A stretch of 53,440 nucleotides of DNA, taken from NCBI GenBank assembly GCA_003220225.1, contig QHRU01000076.1:1-53440 (forward strand), given 5' to 3'. Made by a program: the position numbers and the translations under genes. The DNA is from Candidatus Rokuibacteriota bacterium. Lineage in GTDB: Bacteria; Methylomirabilota; Methylomirabilia; Rokubacteriales; CSP1-6. The notes below the pieces were generated by a model, which was not told the origin of the DNA, did no database searches, and saw only the letters and a list, made by a program, of their open reading frames with translations. Below, one piece after another: positions 8,595 to 29,985 of this stretch (the first letter of the stretch is position 1; every line of letters starts with the position of its first letter).

Positions 8595-9218
8595 ATGGCC
8601 AACGAGCGCGGACGACTGCCGAAGGCGCGACGCGAGGAGCTGAGCGAGCACCTGCAGCGGATGCTCGGGCGCTGGTACACGAACGCGTACCAGGACGACA
8701 ACCTGTTCCTCACCATGGCGCGCCGGCCCGGCCTGCTCGACGCCACGTGGGGCTTCATCCGCTACATCTACGGCGGCGGCTCCAGCGTCGAGCCCGAGCT
8801 GTTCGAGCTGGTCCGCGTCAAGCTCGCCTGGAACAACCGCTGCGTGCACTGAAGCCTCGCGCGATCCTCCTCGGCCGTGAGCCGGGGCGCGACGGAAGAC
8901 CTGGTGGCCAAGCTCACCGACTACGAGCACTCCGACCTCTCCGAGCGCACGAAGGCAGCGTTGCGCCTCGCCGACCGGTTGACCCGCGAGACTCCGGCGG
9001 TCGACGAGGCGTTCTACGACGACCTGCGCCGGCACTTCAGCGACGACCAGATCCTCGACCTCGGCATGACGATCACCTTCGCGAGCGGCTGGCAGCGCTT
9101 CATCGAAGCCTTCGGGATCGTGCCGGACCGCTGGCGTGACGGCGCACCGCCGCCCTTCCACGCGCTGCACGACCACGACTCGAAGCTTAGACTTCCTCCC
9201 ACGCTCGAGTCGCGTTGA
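8595..9218 (+). CDS. AhpD-like / carboxymuconolactone decarboxylase family selenoprotein (CxxU)
   Basis: Read through the in-frame TGA at 8850-8852, this is one 207-residue protein of the AhpD-like family. The block ELVRVKLAWNNRCVH leads to UGA at residue 86 (motif C83-V-H-U86), which is the second Cys of the family's CxxC redox site. The frame then continues without a shift through SLARSSSAVSRGATEDL into the expected helices (KLTDYEHSDLSERTKAALRLADRL), ending at 9218. Read as a stop, the UGA would leave an 85-residue protein ending just before its second active-site residue and would leave the well-conserved second half without a good start. A SECIS-like hairpin follows the UGA. Sec forms of AhpD-like proteins have been predicted before. 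The likely role is thiol-dependent peroxide reduction in the cytosol. Confidence 0.85.
8858..8891 (+). promoter_or_regulatory. SECIS-like hairpin after UGA of the AhpD-like gene
   Basis: The inner helix pairs 8870-8875 with 8881-8886 around the five-base loop CGUGA (8876-8880), which starts 24 nt after the UGA. U8871 can instead be bulged, with 8869-8870 pairing 8885-8886. An outer 5-bp helix CGCGC/GCGCG (8858-8862 with 8887-8891) closes the element. The loop has G as its second base and a GU step, and its distance from the UGA lies within the range published for bacterial SECIS elements. Confidence 0.75.
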
Positions 9219-21578: not shown

Positions 21579-23435
21579 TCAGCTGATCCCGAGCTCGGCT
21601 AGCTTGGCGTCGGTCGGCTTGCCCGTCTGCGGGTCCCAGCCGGCCATTTCGTAGTAGGTCTTACGCGCGGCGAGGAATTCGTCGGGATCGATCCTGGCGC
21701 CCTTGATGGCGCCGTTGCCGATGCCCTCGTGCATGCGCTGGGGCAGCACGTCGTCCGCCGGGGTGAAGCCCTCCCGGTTGTTGAACATGCGCGCCAGCGT
21801 GTTGTTCCGCTCGCCCACCTTCATCAGCTCGTAGAGGCTCATGTTCCAGCCGGTGACCGCGTTGATGTAGTCGATCATGGGGTCGAGCTGCAGGGTGTTC
21901 AGCGGCGCGCCCACGAAATCGCACATGCCGACGGAGTTGTAGGCGCTCCACACCTGCTGCGTCACGTAGAACGCGCGCACCTTCTTGGCGTCGAGCGTCA
22001 TCGGGTCGAGCGGCTCGATCAGGCCGAGCACGCCCATCGGGTGGCCCTGGGGGTGGAAGCCGGCATAGAGCGGGTCGTGAGGCGCCTCCATGTGATCGGC
22101 GCCCGTCGGCGAGATCGCGTAGGCGAGCGACAGGCCCTTCTTGCCGCGCGGGTCGTGCATCGGCAGCTCCTGGCCCTTCACGTGGAGCGCGAAGCGCTCG
22201 GCGCCCTTGCCGAGGCTCTCCGCCGCGCGCTTGACGCCCTCGGCGAGCAGGTCGCCGAGGCCCTCGCGCCTGCCGATCATGTGGATGAGCCCGATCACGG
22301 CGTCGGCGTTGCCCCACGAGAGGTCCAGGCCGCCCGCCATCTCGCTCGTGATGATGCCGTGCTCGTAGCACTCCATCGCGAACGCGCAGACGGCGCCCGT
22401 GGAGATGGAGTCGAGCACGTACTGCGCATGCAGCTGGTTGATCAGGGCCAGCGCGTTGAGGTCCTTCACGCCGCAGAGCGAGCCGGAAGCGGCCAGGGTC
22501 TCGTACTCGGGCCCGCCGTATTTCGGCGTCACGCCCAGCTCCTTCACCTCGACCTCGCGCTTGCACGCCACCGCGCACGCGTAGCAGGTGCCGCGGTTCA
22601 CCAGAATCGTGTCGCGCATCTTCTGCCCGCTGATGTCTTTGGCGCCCTCGAAGGAGCCGTCCCGGAAGTTGCGCGTGGGCAGGATTCCGCTGGCCTCCAG
22701 CGCCAGCACGCCGCTGGATGAGCCCAGCTGGTGGAAACGGTCCTTGGAGCGGTCGTAGTTGTCCTTGAACCAGACGAGCTGCTTCTTCGCGGTGTCCTTG
22801 TCGGTGGCCGCCGGCGGCTTGCTGCCGCGCACGACGATGGCCTTGAGCTTCTTCGCACCCATCACGGCGCCGAGCCCGCCGCGCCCGTGGAAGTGTTTGA
22901 GCTGGTTCACGATGGCGGCGTAGCGCACGAGCTTCTCGCCGGCCACGCCGCACTGCAGCGTGCGCACGCGCTTGTCGCCCAGCTCGACCTCGATGCCGTC
23001 CTGCACGTCGCCCGAGAGCTTGCCCCAGTAGGGCGTCGCGTCGCGGAACTCGACCGCGGCGTCCTTGATCCAGACGTAGACCGGCGTCTTCGACGCGCCG
23101 TGCACGACGACGCCGTCCCAGCCCGCCGCCCGCAGCTCCGGGCCCCACCAGCCGCCGGCCTCGGACTCGCCGTAGCCGCCGGTCAGCGGCGACTTCGCCG
23201 CCGCCGTGTAGCGGTTGGTGCCGGAGAGCGAGAGCCCGTTGATCACGCTCGTCATCAAGACGAGCACGTTGTCGGGCCCGAGCGGATCGGCGCCGGGCTT
23301 CAGATCGCGCAGCAGCAGGTGCGCCGCGAGCGCACCGCCGCCGAGGTACTTGCGGTAGGTCGCCTCCGGGATCTCTTCGGCGCGATGGGTGCGGTCGGTC
23401 AGGTCGACGTGCAGGATCTTGGCGGTGATCGCCAT
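21579..23435 (-). CDS. Aldehyde:ferredoxin oxidoreductase family tungsten enzyme
   Basis: A 618-residue AOR-family protein starting MAITAKILHVDLT, with GGGAGG upstream. YLGGGALAAHLLL and the pterin motif GRGGLGAVMGAKKLKAI (about 184-200) are family hallmarks. The [4Fe-4S] cluster ligands are C284, C287 and C291 (CYACAVAC), with a fourth Cys near residue 510 (VGMCDF). It oxidises aldehydes, reducing ferredoxin, using tungsto-bispterin. It is shorter and simpler than multi-subunit forms; no electron-transfer subunit is adjacent. It is divergent from the Sec-OsmC gene. Confidence 0.92.
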   Translation of the reverse strand: MAITAKILHVDLTDRTHRAEEIPEATYRKYLGGGALAAHLLLRDLKPGADPLGPDNVLVLMTSVINGLSLSGTNRYTAAAKSPLTGGYGESEAGGWWGPELRAAGWDGVVVHGASKTPVYVWIKDAAVEFRDATPYWGKLSGDVQDGIEVELGDKRVRTLQCGVAGEKLVRYAAIVNQLKHFHGRGGLGAVMGAKKLKAIVVRGSKPPAATDKDTAKKQLVWFKDNYDRSKDRFHQLGSSSGVLALEASGILPTRNFRDGSFEGAKDISGQKMRDTILVNRGTCYACAVACKREVEVKELGVTPKYGGPEYETLAASGSLCGVKDLNALALINQLHAQYVLDSISTGAVCAFAMECYEHGIITSEMAGGLDLSWGNADAVIGLIHMIGRREGLGDLLAEGVKRAAESLGKGAERFALHVKGQELPMHDPRGKKGLSLAYAISPTGADHMEAPHDPLYAGFHPQGHPMGVLGLIEPLDPMTLDAKKVRAFYVTQQVWSAYNSVGMCDFVGAPLNTLQLDPMIDYINAVTGWNMSLYELMKVGERNNTLARMFNNREGFTPADDVLPQRMHEGIGNGAIKGARIDPDEFLAARKTYYEMAGWDPQTGKPTDAKLAELGIS

Positions 23436-23553
23436 ACGCGGTGTCCCTCCCTGGAAAGTCGCCGCCGATGCTACTACCGACGCCGCGCTTCGTCTACCGG
23501 CGCGGGGCCTCCGTGCGGCTATTCTATGCGGCGACACACGAGGAGGCCCGCCG

Positions 23554-24066
23554 ATGAGTGCGACCCCGGAAGGACTGGATCCGACGATCACCCGCCGCGA
23601 GATCGTCTTCGAAGCCGACGTCACGTCGGTCACGCCGTTCCTGAAGGTGGCGACGGTCAGCCGCGCCGGAACCGGCCACATGACGTTCGCCTGCGACGAG
23701 GGCCCGAACCTCGGCGGCCTCGGCTCGGCGCCCACGCCGCTGATGTACTTCAGCGCGGCCCTTGCCTTCTGACTCATGACTCAAGTGTCCCGGTACGGGC
23801 ACATGCTCAAGGTGACGGTCGGGCGGATGCGGATGCGCGTGACCGCGCGCTATCGCGTCACCGGCTCGGTCCTCGACGACACCGTCCAGGGGGAGATGCT
23901 GGGCGCCGACACGGTGCTCGAGCTCGACTCGCCCGATCCTCCGGACCGTGTGGCCCGCCTCGTCCGCAACGCCGAGCGCGGCTGCTTCGTCATGCAGGCG
24001 CTGCTGCGACCCGTGACGATCTCATCGGCCGCGGTTCTCAACGGCCGCCCACTCGAGCGCGCCTAG
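23554..24066 (+). CDS. OsmC-like selenoprotein
   Basis: Read through the in-frame TGA at 23770-23772, this is one 170-residue OsmC/Ohr-family protein. The N-terminal half ends APTPLMYFSAALAF and is followed by UGA at residue 73, where OsmC proteins carry the first reactive cysteine (…AALaxC). The frame continues through MTQVSRYGHMLKVTVGRMRM to the second conserved cysteine, C144, in RGCFVMQALLRPV, and ends at 24066. GAGGAGG precedes the ATG at 23554. A SECIS-like hairpin very close to that of E. coli fdhF follows the UGA. OsmC-like selenoproteins have been predicted in other bacteria. The role would be thiol/selenol-based reduction of organic hydroperoxides. Confidence 0.88.
23785..23802 (+). 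promoter_or_regulatory. SECIS-like hairpin after UGA of the OsmC-like gene
   Basis: GUG (23785-23787), bulged U (23788), CCC (23789-23791), loop GGUAC (23792-23796), GGG and CAC (23797-23802). The order three pairs, bulged U, three pairs, loop starting GGU reproduces the SelB-binding part of the E. coli fdhF element. The bulged U is the 16th base after the UGA and the loop starts at the 20th, close to the fdhF spacing as I recall it. Confidence 0.85.
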
Positions 24067-25389: not shown

Positions 25390-26900
25390 CGCGGCGAGGC
25401 TCGATCGCGGCCGTCGGCGGAGTCCTGATGGCGCTGCTGGTCTGCGCCGCGGCGGCGCCCGCCGAGCCGCCGCGCATCCGCGTGGGCTCGAAATCGTTCA
25501 CGGAGAGCTACATCCTGGCCGAGATGGTCGCGCAGATCGTCGACGAGACGGGCGAGGCGCGCGCGGAGCGGCGGCTGGGGCTCGGCGGCACGGGCATCGT
25601 CTACGGCGCCCTGGCCAGCGGCGACATCGACATCTATCCCGAGTACACGGGGACCATCGCCCAGGCGATCCTCAAGGAGCCCACGCTCGCCTCGGTCCAA
25701 GCCATGCGCACGCGGCTCGGCGCGCGCGGACTCACGCTCGGCGTCGCGCTCGGCTTCGACAACACCTATGCCCTCGCCGTCCGGCGCGACGCGGCGGCGC
25801 GCCTGGGCCTGCGCACGATCGGCGATCTCGCGCGCCATCCCGGGCTGCGGGCGGCCTTCGACCCCGGCTTCCTCGACCGCGGGGACGGCTGGCCGGGGCT
25901 CCAGCGTCAGTACGGCCTGCGCTTCGCCGAGGTGCGCGCCATGGAGCACGCGCTCACGTATCCCGCGCTCGTGAGCGGCCGCGTGGACGTGATCGACGTC
26001 TTCTCGACCGACGGCCAGCTCGCGCGCCTGGACCTGGCGCTGCTCACCGACGACCGGCGCTTCTTCCCCGACTACAGCGCCGTGCTGCTCGCGCGCCGCT
26101 CGCTCGCCGAGCGCTTTCCACGCACGTGGGCGGCGCTCCAGGGACGTCTCGGCGGTCGGATCGACAACGCGACGATGGCGCGCCTCAACGCGCTCGCGGA
26201 TCTCGAGCGCCGATCGTTCGCGGAGGCGGCCGCGACCTTCCTCGGGCGGTCGAGCGCCGAGACCGCGCGGCGGCCGGCCCGGGAGCTGGCGACGCTGACC
26301 CTCGAGCACGTGTGGCTGGTCGCCGTCTCGCTGACGGCGGCCGTGCTGCTCGGGCTGCCGCTCGGCATCCTCGCCGCGCGCCGGCGGCGGCTGGCGCAGG
26401 CGGAGCTGATGGGCGTGGGCGTGATCCAGACGATTCCCGCGCTCGCGCTGCTCTCGTTCATGATCCCGCTCTTCGGCATCGGCCAGCTGCCGGCGCTCGT
26501 CGCGCTGTCCCTCTACGCGCTGCTGCCCATCGTGCGCACCACGCACGCCGCGATCAGCAGCCTCGATCCGCGGCTCGTCGAGATGACGACGGTCCTCGGG
26601 CTCCGCGGCTGGCGCCGCCTGGCCTGGGTCGAGCTGCCGCTGGCCTCGGTGACCATCATGGCGGGGATCAAGACCGCGGCCGTCCTCACCGTGGGCACGG
26701 CGACGCTCGCGGCGTTCATCGGCGGCGGCGGGTACGGCACCCTGATCGTGACCGGACTCGCCCTCAACGACGTCGGCACCATCCTCACCGGCGCGATTCC
26801 AGCCGCGGTGATGGCGCTCGTCATCCACGCCGCGTTCGAGGCCCTCGACCGTGTCGTGGTCCCGCGCGCGCTGCGCGCGGCGCCCTCAGCGTCGAACTAG
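25386..26900 (+). CDS. Fused substrate-binding protein and permease of an OpuBC/EgtU-type importer
   Basis: A 504-residue protein with a signal peptide (about 1-27), then a type II periplasmic-binding domain of the OpuAC class (about 30-285; IRVGSKSFTESYILAEM, LASGDIDIYPEYTGT), then a permease domain with about five membrane helices (about 300-490; the EAA-like loop is MTTVLGLRGWRRL). In the known OpuBC/EgtU fusions the permease comes first and the binding domain last; here the order is reversed. Substrates of this class are quaternary amines such as choline, glycine betaine and ergothioneine. The convergent egtB/egtD genes next door favour ergothioneine or a betaine precursor; this is inference. 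Confidence 0.9.
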   Translation: MTRRGSIAAVGGVLMALLVCAAAAPAEPPRIRVGSKSFTESYILAEMVAQIVDETGEARAERRLGLGGTGIVYGALASGDIDIYPEYTGTIAQAILKEPTLASVQAMRTRLGARGLTLGVALGFDNTYALAVRRDAAARLGLRTIGDLARHPGLRAAFDPGFLDRGDGWPGLQRQYGLRFAEVRAMEHALTYPALVSGRVDVIDVFSTDGQLARLDLALLTDDRRFFPDYSAVLLARRSLAERFPRTWAALQGRLGGRIDNATMARLNALADLERRSFAEAAATFLGRSSAETARRPARELATLTLEHVWLVAVSLTAAVLLGLPLGILAARRRRLAQAELMGVGVIQTIPALALLSFMIPLFGIGQLPALVALSLYALLPIVRTTHAAISSLDPRLVEMTTVLGLRGWRRLAWVELPLASVTIMAGIKTAAVLTVGTATLAAFIGGGGYGTLIVTGLALNDVGTILTGAIPAAVMALVIHAAFEALDRVVVPRALRAAPSASN

Positions 26901-27656
26901 CGGGCCGGCCTCGAGCCGCTCGTGCAGCGCGCGGCAGGCCGCGACGACGTCGGCGTCGTAGCCCGGGAACCACGCGGCCATCCACTCCGGGCGCTCGAAG
27001 AACGCCAATGGCGGCCGCCCCGTGCGCCGGATGGCGCCGCGCCGCACGAGGCCACTGGCGTTGATGAAGCTGACGTCGGTGAGCAGGCGGCCCGGCGCGG
27101 CGAAGCCGGCCGTCGCCGGCGCCAGGCGCCGGATCTCCGCGAGGCACTCGGCGACCGCGCGCAGACAGAAGACGTGCGCCCGCGACCGCAGCCGCGAGGG
27201 CAGCGCCGCGAGCACCTCGCGCATCGTCAGGCCCGTGAAGATCGTGTCGTCGACGACCGCGAGCGACGCGGCGTCGGGCAGCGCGCCGAGCTGGCGCGCG
27301 AGCGGCGCCGGAGCGGCGAGGCGATAGCCTCCGTCCGCGTCCTCCTCGCGCCAGACGTCGACCCGCCAAACGCTCGGAAACCAGCCGGTGCGCTCGTGCA
27401 CCTGCGCGGCGACGGCGGCGCCGGCGGGGCCGATCGCCACGACCGCTCCGAACGGCCGATGCCCGCCCTGCTCGATCAGCGCGGCGATCTGAGCGGCGGG
27501 CGTGAGCACGACCACGCGGTCCGGCTCTCGCGCCAGCAGGGTGAAGAGCACCCGCCCCAACTGTCGGATCGGGGCGTCCCCGCCGTGCCGAGCCAGCTCC
27601 TCCGAGAGATCGTCGTGCACGTAGAGCCGGCGCGGCGTCGGCGTGCCCATCGTCAC
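26886..27656 (-). CDS. Phosphoribosyltransferase-fold protein in the egt cluster
   Basis: A 256-residue protein with the PRPP-binding loop LAVVDDTIFTGLT (136-142 core) at the end of a beta-strand, as in type I phosphoribosyltransferases. Further elements include VVAIGPAGAAVAAQ (a PPi-loop-like region) and a C-terminal extension ending LVRR. It starts inside the end of egtD (ATGA overlap at 27653-27656) and so is the third gene of an egtB-egtD operon. It is not one of the canonical ergothioneine genes; the substrate is unknown. Its end overlaps the convergent importer gene by 15 nt. Confidence 0.82.
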   Translation of the reverse strand: MTMGTPTPRRLYVHDDLSEELARHGGDAPIRQLGRVLFTLLAREPDRVVVLTPAAQIAALIEQGGHRPFGAVVAIGPAGAAVAAQVHERTGWFPSVWRVDVWREEDADGGYRLAAPAPLARQLGALPDAASLAVVDDTIFTGLTMREVLAALPSRLRSRAHVFCLRAVAECLAEIRRLAPATAGFAAPGRLLTDVSFINASGLVRRGAIRRTGRPPLAFFERPEWMAAWFPGYDADVVAACRALHERLEAGPLVRR

Positions 27657-28639
27657 GGGGACGCCGCGGGTCGCGCCAATGCCAGGCCGAAGTGATCGTG
27701 CTCATCCGTGTACCAGGCGTCCAGGGCCAGCCCGCCGTCGGCGAGCATCGCTTCCGTCGAGGCGCGCGTGAACTTGTACGAGCTCTCGGTCCAGATCCCG
27801 TCGCCCTCGTGGAGGTCGAGGACCATGTCGAGCTTCGGCAGGTGCACGCGCTGCGGCGCGGTGGCGAGCAGGTGCATCTCGACGCGGCTCGCGGCGTCGT
27901 CGTAGAAGGCGTGGTGACGATAGGCGTCGAGGCGGAAGTCGGCGTCGAGCGCGCGGTTGACGACGGCGAGGATGTTCCGGTTGAAGGCCGCGGTCACCCC
28001 CGCGGCGTCGTCGTACGCGGGCTCGAGGATGCTGCGCTCCTTGACGAGATCGACGCCGAGGAGCAGCCGGCCGTCGGCGCCGAGCAGGCGGCCGATCTCC
28101 CCCAGCAATGCCGCGCGCGCGGCCGGCTCGAAGTTGCCGATGGTGCTCCCGAGGAAGAGCGCGAGCCGCCGGCCGATCGGCGCCGGGACGTGGACCAGGT
28201 CCCGCTCGAAATCGCCGATCACGCCGTGGACGTGCAGCCAGCCGTAGTCGCGGGTGAGGCCGCTCACGGCGTCGCGGAGGCCGTCGCGGCCGAAGTCGAT
28301 CGGGACGTACCGCACCCCGGCGGGGGAGCGGAGCGCGTCGAAGAGCCAGCGCACCTTGCGGCACGAGCCGGGCCCCAGCTCGACGATCTCGTCCGGCGCC
28401 GTGCGCTGCGCGACCTCGCCGGCCACCCGGGAGAGCAGGGACGCCTCGACGCGCGTCAGGTAGTACTCGGGAAGCTCGGTGATGCGCTCGAAGAGCCGCG
28501 CGCCGATCTCGTCGTAGAAGTACTTGGGCGGGATGGAGCGCGGCCACGCGCTCAGCCCGCGTCGCACGTCAGCCTCGAGCATCTTGACGAAGGCCGCGTC
28601 GTCCGCGTGGACGTCGAACCGGCAGCGGGCGGGCCACAC
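27653..28639 (-). CDS. egtD: L-histidine N-alpha-methyltransferase
   Basis: A 328-residue protein of the EgtD/DUF2260 family that trimethylates histidine to hercynine. Features: PPKYFYDEIGARLFERITELPEYYLTR spread over residues 37-63, SAM motif IVELGPGSCRKVRWL (85-99), FLGSTIGNFEP, LLLGVDLVKE and a C-terminal LHEGDGIWTESSYKF. The GTG start lies 1 nt after the egtB stop (TGA-C-GTG), so the genes are translationally coupled. It is cytosolic and uses three SAM per histidine. Confidence 0.92.
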   Translation of the reverse strand: MWPARCRFDVHADDAAFVKMLEADVRRGLSAWPRSIPPKYFYDEIGARLFERITELPEYYLTRVEASLLSRVAGEVAQRTAPDEIVELGPGSCRKVRWLFDALRSPAGVRYVPIDFGRDGLRDAVSGLTRDYGWLHVHGVIGDFERDLVHVPAPIGRRLALFLGSTIGNFEPAARAALLGEIGRLLGADGRLLLGVDLVKERSILEPAYDDAAGVTAAFNRNILAVVNRALDADFRLDAYRHHAFYDDAASRVEMHLLATAPQRVHLPKLDMVLDLHEGDGIWTESSYKFTRASTEAMLADGGLALDAWYTDEHDHFGLALARPAASP

Positions 28640-28640
28640 G

Positions 28641-29942
28641 TCAGCGCGCCACGGTCCGGAAGCCGGCGAAGACGTTGCGCCGCTGCCGCTTGAAGAAATT
28701 GCGCCACGTACCCCGGATCAGGCGTGAACGCGTCGTCCAGCATCCGCCCTTGAGCACGTTCTTCTGGCCGAAATGCGGCTCGGAATACTCCTTGTACGGG
28801 TCGCACACGAACCCGGGATACGGCTGGAACGTGTCGGCCACCCACTCCCACACGTTGCCGATCATCTGCCGGCAGCCGACCGGACTGTCGCCGGCCGGCA
28901 GCGCGCGCACGTCGAGCGTTCCGCCGGCGCGGTAGTCGAGATTGGCGCGCGCGGGCGTCGGCGGCGCGTCGCCCCAGGGGAAACGCCGCTTGCGGCCCGT
29001 GGCCGGGTCGAGCGTGGCCGCCATCTCCCACTCCGCCTCGGTGGGGAGCCGCCGGCCCGCCCAGCGGCAGAACGCCTCCGCCTCGTACCAGTTCACGTGC
29101 ACGACCGGGTGCCACGGCTCGAGGGGCCCCAGCAGGTCGAAGCGGCGCTCGCACCAGCGACCGCCGGCGCGCTGCCAGAACACCGGATGCTCGGCGCCCT
29201 CGCGGCGGCGCCAGTCCCAGCCGCGCCGTCCCCAGCACTCGCGACGCCGATAGCCGCCGTCGTCGACGAAGCCCAGGAACTCCGCGTTGGTGACGGGCGT
29301 CGCGGCGATCCGGAACGGCTCGACCTCGACGGGGTGCGCCCACTTCTCGTTGTCGAAGACGAACGGCTCGTCGGGTTCGGCGCCGAGCGTGAACGCGCCG
29401 CCGGGGACGGAGACGTCGCGCGGACGGAACCCGGGATCGACGGGCGGCGCAGGCGCGGGAGTGGCGCCGAGGCTTGCCGGCCGCGCGTAGCCGAGCGTCT
29501 GGAGGATCGCCGTCAGGTTCTCGCCGTGCATGTCCTCGTGCAGCGCGGCCAGCGTGTAGAAATACGCGTCGTCGCCGCGCGGCTCGCGCGACTCGAGGCG
29601 AGCCACGCTCCGCCGCAGCACCTCCGTGATGTACGCGCGCGTCGACGCGCGGGACGGAAAGCGATGATCCCAGCGCCGCGTGTAGGAGACGTTGAACGAG
29701 TCGTAGACGTCGTCCGCCCCGGGCAGCAGCGGGTCGGCGCCGTCGAGCCGGCGCAGCAGCCAGTACTCCTGGAACCAGCCGACGTGGCCCATCTCCCAGA
29801 TCGGCGGCTCGACGAAGTGCGCGCGCGTGCCCAGCATCTGGGCGTCCGTGAGATCGTCGAGCAGCGCGAGCTCGACCCGGCGGGCGTCGAGCAGCGCTTC
29901 GAGCAGCGCATCGGACGTGGTGGCGGCCTGGGGCGTGATCAT
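28641..29942 (-). CDS. egtB: Ergothioneine synthase EgtB (sulfoxide synthase)
   Basis: A 433-residue non-heme iron enzyme. The N-terminal DinB-like domain carries the three-His iron site: H53 (MGHVGWFQEYWLL) and H135/H139 in LHEDMHGE (HX3HXE). The C-terminal FGE-sulfatase (SUMF1) domain (about 175-433) has VPGGAFTLG, RLPTEAEWEMA, NVWEWVADTF and KGGCW. It joins hercynine to a thiol (gamma-glutamylcysteine or cysteine) with O2. No egtA, egtC or egtE is nearby, hinting at the shorter route or unlinked genes. The ATG at 29942 is chosen over 29963 on alignment; neither has a clear ribosome binding site. Confidence 0.92.
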   Translation of the reverse strand: MITPQAATTSDALLEALLDARRVELALLDDLTDAQMLGTRAHFVEPPIWEMGHVGWFQEYWLLRRLDGADPLLPGADDVYDSFNVSYTRRWDHRFPSRASTRAYITEVLRRSVARLESREPRGDDAYFYTLAALHEDMHGENLTAILQTLGYARPASLGATPAPAPPVDPGFRPRDVSVPGGAFTLGAEPDEPFVFDNEKWAHPVEVEPFRIAATPVTNAEFLGFVDDGGYRRRECWGRRGWDWRRREGAEHPVFWQRAGGRWCERRFDLLGPLEPWHPVVHVNWYEAEAFCRWAGRRLPTEAEWEMAATLDPATGRKRRFPWGDAPPTPARANLDYRAGGTLDVRALPAGDSPVGCRQMIGNVWEWVADTFQPYPGFVCDPYKEYSEPHFGQKNVLKGGCWTTRSRLIRGTWRNFFKRQRRNVFAGFRTVAR

Positions 29943-29985
29943 CGCGTGCCGGCGCCGGCGCATGAAAGTCTAGCGCCGGGTGGGG

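Follow-up and report, generated by a model that had tools for sequence, protein, structure and literature searches.

A UGA-containing OsmC-fold gene of a Rokubacteria genome, very probably a selenoprotein gene of a catalogued family

The OsmC-fold gene and its neighbours

The window analysed here is a stretch of 53,440 nucleotides from a draft genome of Candidatus Rokuibacteriota. When the frame from 23554 to 24066 is translated, a single UGA is met, at codon 73, and the frame closes with a TAG terminator. The features of the window needed for the analysis are the following.

8595 to 9218, plus strand: AhpD/CMD-like gene with a CxxU motif (CVHU), its UGA at 8850-8852; TIGR01926-like, below the cut-off; UGA kept in orthologues
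21579 to 23435, minus strand: aldehyde ferredoxin oxidoreductase (AFOR), divergent neighbour; Pfam AFOR_N 235.9 bits and AFOR_C 425.8 bits on 21579-23429, ATG at 23435
23540 to 23546, plus strand: Shine-Dalgarno-like GAGGAGG, 5' of the ATG, seen in the sequence
23554 to 24066, plus strand: OsmC-fold gene, member of NF041052, predicted selenoprotein of 170 aa with Sec at residue 73 when TGA is translated as U
23770 to 23772, plus strand: UGA codon, predicted to encode selenocysteine within a UxxT motif (U-L-M-T); present at this codon in every orthologue read, a Tectomicrobia homologue among them
23785 to 23802, plus strand: bSECIS-type hairpin GUG-U-CCC GGUAC GGG-CAC
23983 to 23985, plus strand: codon of the second conserved Cys, C144, invariant in a 15-sequence alignment
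27653 to 28639, minus strand: EgtD, histidine N-alpha-methyltransferase; TIGR03438, 348.4 bits (cut-off 290.9)
28641 to 29963, minus strand: SenA, selenoneine synthase, not itself a selenoprotein; NF041186, 466.9 bits (cut-off 420)

The protein encoded at 23554-24066 scored 158.8 bits with the NCBIfam profile NF041052, "OsmC-related (seleno)protein" (cut-off 95), nearly the whole profile being matched, and 149.9 bits were obtained with the same profile in a six-frame search of the genome. The Pfam OsmC domain was recognised over residues 56-157 (48.5 bits, cut-off 27.5). In NF041052 the first redox position is occupied by Sec or Cys and a second Cys is conserved, which corresponds here to U73 and C144. 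Structural elements were predicted in the order E-E-H(61-84)-E-E-H(130-151)-E, with the redox residues carried by both long helices. A Foldseek search with the predicted fold returned OsmC/Ohr proteins as top matches, 3cje first, and the assignment to the OsmC fold has the moderate confidence of that model (mean pLDDT 66.7).

The best match in both sequence and fold is 3cje, an OsmC-like hydroperoxide resistance protein of Jannaschia sp. CCS1, which is 24% identical over the structural alignment but has Cys where the gene has its predicted Sec. The CVMTQ of this Cys form lines up with ULMTQ, and its second Cys with C144. Two points of the initial annotation are borne out by this alignment, namely that the UGA stands at the first catalytic Cys of OsmC proteins and that the second half of the protein follows in the same frame with the second Cys. 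The presence at this locus of an OsmC-fold gene with a genuine in-frame UGA is confirmed. Ordinary gene calling splits such genes, here into ORFs of 127 and 96 aa.

When the window was scanned for UGA-containing genes by GC content at codon positions, 180 candidates were obtained, among which the UGA at 8850 ranked best, and was confirmed by homology, and that at 23770 ranked tenth. The UGA at 8850, within CVHU of the AhpD/CMD-like gene, was kept in five orthologues of 56-88% identity. Most of the many paralogues of this gene in relatives have an in-frame TGA as well. The minus-strand frame 26886-27656, adjoining EgtD and SenA, appeared phosphoribosyltransferase-like by eye (VVDDTIFTG) and had no Pfam or NCBIfam match.

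The company of the OsmC gene had been put forward as one of its novelties. Its members, the AhpD-like CxxU selenogene, SenA and EgtD, are real, but they do not form a conserved neighbourhood, which weakens the claim to newness: neither AFOR, nor the ABC transporter, nor SenA/EgtD recurred beside the OsmC gene in as many as three of the named relatives with flanking sequence. The sole recurrent upstream neighbour in the named relatives with flanks was a peroxiredoxin (Prx)-like gene.

Conservation of the UGA, the selenocysteine machinery and the hairpin

Fourteen named genome records (13 Rokubacteria and one Tectomicrobia) contained homologues 65-81% identical to the gene, all with UGA at the identical codon. 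In a search of 95 genomes of the phylum (Methylomirabilota, of which we take the Rokubacteria to be part, following GTDB), TGA was present in all 22 matches above the NF041052 cut-off, and no Cys form above that cut-off was seen. As the gene was absent from two genus-mates, its distribution is patchy. Mismatches among orthologues at codon positions 1, 2 and 3 amounted to 0.19, 0.14 and 0.41 downstream of the UGA, compared with 0.11, 0.13 and 0.41 upstream. Differences are therefore concentrated at the third position also after the UGA, a sign that selection in this frame acts on the downstream half. The pN/pS values (0.14-0.40 upstream, 0.22-0.60 downstream) point to purifying selection on both sides. 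Judging from the genomes compared, the conservation of the UGA is far beyond chance.

The host genome, a metagenome-type draft of 6.03 Mb in 167 contigs and 97% complete, encodes a tRNA-Sec with anticodon TCA (UCA; 69.7 bits), SelB (372 bits) and SelA (585 bits) on contig C5 and SelD (335 bits) on contig C159, each above its cut-off. The selA, selB, selC and selD genes, for which a search had been proposed, are therefore all present in one genome. Of eight neighbouring genes that are supported by homology or have a clear frame, six end in UGA and none contains it internally, in agreement with the earlier remark that UGA is a normal stop in this region. The selD gene carries an in-frame UGA of its own, in the motif CAGUASK; together with the gene that follows it, it lies at C159:12780-15227 of the host genome (L022, L135).

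Just downstream of selD lies a glycosyltransferase-like gene that matched TIGR04348, which we take to be the SenB family, over nearly its full length and below the cut-off (104 bits, cut-off 300); this gene could possibly serve the selenosugar step. The selenoneine pathway runs through SelD, SenB and SenA (PMC10903977), so that selenoneine synthesis is plausible in this host.

The loop of the hairpin that follows the UGA of the OsmC gene, GGUAC (23792-23796), begins 20 nt past that codon. In the window sequence alone, the energy of the hairpin did not stand out from what is expected of coding DNA rich in GC (P = 0.21 in a comparison with synonymous recodings). The stability of a single sequence was thus rejected as proof of a SECIS, and the evidence for an RNA element was drawn from comparison between species. 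Among ortholog pairs with identical amino acids, synonymous codon differences reached their minimum for the gene between codons +4 and +11, at 9% (0.09) compared with 42% (0.42) gene-wide. No base pair was altered on both sides in the closest orthologues, where covariation is uninformative. Across an alignment of 40 OsmC selenogenes, including divergent ones, 43 cells were changed in a compensatory manner on both sides compared with 17.1 ± 2.9 after shuffling, and the covariation score was 0.364 compared with 0.142, a value reached in none of 500 shuffles; this comparison can be inflated by relatedness, whereas the slid control retains relatedness, and all slid controls scored lower. In L043 (40% identity), the stem differs and the GGUAC loop and its distance are identical, and in other subfamilies of OsmC selenogenes from the phylum, stems such as UCGCGC/GCGCGA, UCUUGC/GCAAGA and UUCGGC/GCCGAA again enclose a loop near nt 20. 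Codon freezing, covariation and loop position together reveal, just past the UGA, a hairpin conserved as RNA, as in bacterial selenoprotein genes.

The SECIS of E. coli fdhF is a short hairpin soon past the UGA, with a GGU-bearing loop and a bulged U. The window hairpin, which the initial annotation had described as a copy of this architecture, shares with the fdhF form, as generally known, the short stem, the closeness to the UGA and the GGU-bearing loop. The location of the hairpin and the distance of its loop stood up to comparison, but the bulged U did not: the window sequence admits an arrangement of three pairs, bulged U and three pairs, which fits the closest orthologues as well but is broken in L041, L064, L068 and L043, and a contiguous 6-bp stem with U.G was kept in 97.0% of cells compared with 92.4% for the bulged-U version. 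On the aligned sequences, the conserved feature of the hairpin is the loop distance and not the bulged U.

Decoding of the UGA and likely function

These data point to the product of the OsmC gene being a full-length selenoprotein, a reading to which we give a probability of about 0.95. SelB and Sec-tRNA(UCA), whose genes are present, would decode the UGA at 23770-23772 as Sec, guided by the hairpin at 23785-23802.

If the UGA were a true stop, the gene would be either a pseudogene or the product of a sequencing or assembly error replacing TGC or TGT, for which one base change would suffice in a metagenome-type draft of so many contigs. However, the identical TGA is found in many separately assembled genomes, coding constraint acts on both sides of it, and no Cys version was seen among the above-cut-off members in the phylum. 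An error of this kind, which the initial annotation had named as a refutation, is very unlikely because the independent assemblies, from which rather than from reads this is judged, all show TGA. With conservation of the TGA across genera and purifying selection downstream both found, the probability of a true stop is close to nil. The UGA could also close a 72-aa N-terminal half, with translation restarting at the ATG at 23776-23778 to give a separate 96-aa C-terminal half. The frame 23776-24066 is open, and 19 of 21 orthologues have ATG two codons past the UGA; L034 and L066, however, have CTG there, and a simple search found AGG or GGA upstream of the ATG in none of the 21, for which reason the use of this ATG as a restart codon was rejected. 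Besides, the first helix would then be severed at its reactive residue, and the frozen synonymous codons and the Sec machinery would be left unexplained, so that two polypeptides are most improbable. Much the same holds for decoding as another amino acid, either Trp through a change of code or Cys through insertion, the latter of which would preserve function, since homologues have Cys at this position. Against it, UGA terminates six of the eight homology-supported neighbours, which use TGG too, a full Sec machinery is encoded, and in several OsmC families the UGA is followed by a hairpin whose loop stands at a fixed distance; we regard such decoding as highly unlikely. The selenocysteine interpretation of the initial annotation is therefore supported, and none of its refuters, among them absent sel genes and homologues without Cys at the UGA column, held on examination.

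In OsmC/Ohr hydroperoxide reductases, a pair of Cys provides the attacking and the resolving residue. By analogy, Sec73 in the first long helix would attack, as a residue of the peroxidatic type, and would be resolved by C144 in the second long helix. The likely task would be to reduce hydroperoxides, organic ones or others, or to carry out a related thiol-redox reaction, and Sec may confer speed and resistance to overoxidation. Such a task is suggested by the fold and, in some relatives, by the Prx-like selenogene that directly precedes the OsmC gene. The two genes are adjacent in L057-L059, and the Prx-like gene is nearby on the upstream side in L061; in L058 (5338-5991) it reads GRWUPYC on read-through and is separated from the OsmC selenogene by about 10 nt. 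This pairing, which is absent from the window itself, supports a role in peroxide defence. The Prx-like ORFs in L057, L059 and L061 are split at a similar site.

On these grounds a peroxide-reductase role appears fairly probable. A Sec protein that is not a peroxidase, with the OsmC fold used for thiol-disulfide exchange or for sulfur or selenium transfer, is rather unlikely, though to be taken seriously: the name of NF041052 says merely "OsmC-related (seleno)protein", and SenA and EgtD in the window, with SelD in the genome, place selenium chemistry nearby. SenA and EgtD, however, are not conserved neighbours, the OsmC/Ohr fold and the two-residue spacing (73/144) resemble those of hydroperoxide-resistance proteins, and some relatives have the Prx-like selenogene just upstream.

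Known relatives and further OsmC-fold selenogenes

As the initial annotation had stated, OsmC-like selenoproteins have been predicted before; those with UxxT were described from Sargasso Sea data in 2005 (PMC1088965) and from GOS data (PMC2398784), OsmC-like selenoproteins are listed in a 2022 review and in a 2026 review (PMC13188914), and they have their own NCBIfam model. The novelty claimed for the host type is contradicted by the 2026 review, which cites a genome of the Methylomirabilota as extremely rich in selenoproteins, 63 genes for them being predicted (PMC13188914). Given NF041052, the UxxT proteins known from 2005 and this genome, neither the family nor the host group is new. The OsmC gene is very probably a true selenoprotein gene; its family is catalogued, and its phylum has been reported to be rich in selenoproteins. 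It differs in nothing substantive from NF041052, of which it is a member. With the Sargasso Sea/GOS proteins (COG1765/PF02566) it shares the domain, the UxxT motif and a predicted bSECIS element, a likeness drawn from their published description; those came from marine reads, whereas this gene is from Rokubacteria.

The part that merits attention is the set of OsmC paralogues, above all a branch in which Sec takes the place of the second Cys. In three more OsmC-fold genes of the host genome, L002 on contig C28, L003 on C108 and L005 on C126, the codon of a redox position is likewise an in-frame UGA; none of the three passed an NCBIfam cut-off. We consider it somewhat more probable than the contrary that Rokubacteria have made the OsmC fold a multi-branch selenoprotein family, with at least four divergent UGA-kept branches in one genome, one of them Ohr-like with Sec as the resolving residue, and that these would form, with the many AhpD-like CxxU selenogenes and SenA/EgtD, a selenium-centred peroxide defence. 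The data indicate that Rokubacteria rely heavily on selenium in thiol-redox chemistry.

In the Ohr-like L003 (1468-1896), the first Cys is kept (SSCGVTL) and Sec would occupy the second position (RUPLYRTV). This arrangement was kept in all 20 genes read (L149-L168, its own included), and at least one TGA was present in 24 of 24 matches of this type. Since the OsmC entry in the published motif list is UxxT only (PMC13188914), Sec at the second Cys with the first Cys kept is absent from that list and may be new. A single organism with Sec at the attacking position of some OsmC-fold proteins and at the resolving position of others would make it possible to test directly what Sec contributes at either site.

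L002 (1489-1911) belongs with L100-L134 to a branch of OsmC selenogenes with GAUTSMT that is common in the phylum, and the genes of this branch have SECIS-like hairpins with swapped stems whose loop begins about nt 20 past the UGA. L005 (909-1397), with L169-L180, represents a fourth OsmC-fold branch, VAGUM[FY]GTL, with UGA in the relatives read and a hairpin farther from the UGA, its loop lying near nt 26.
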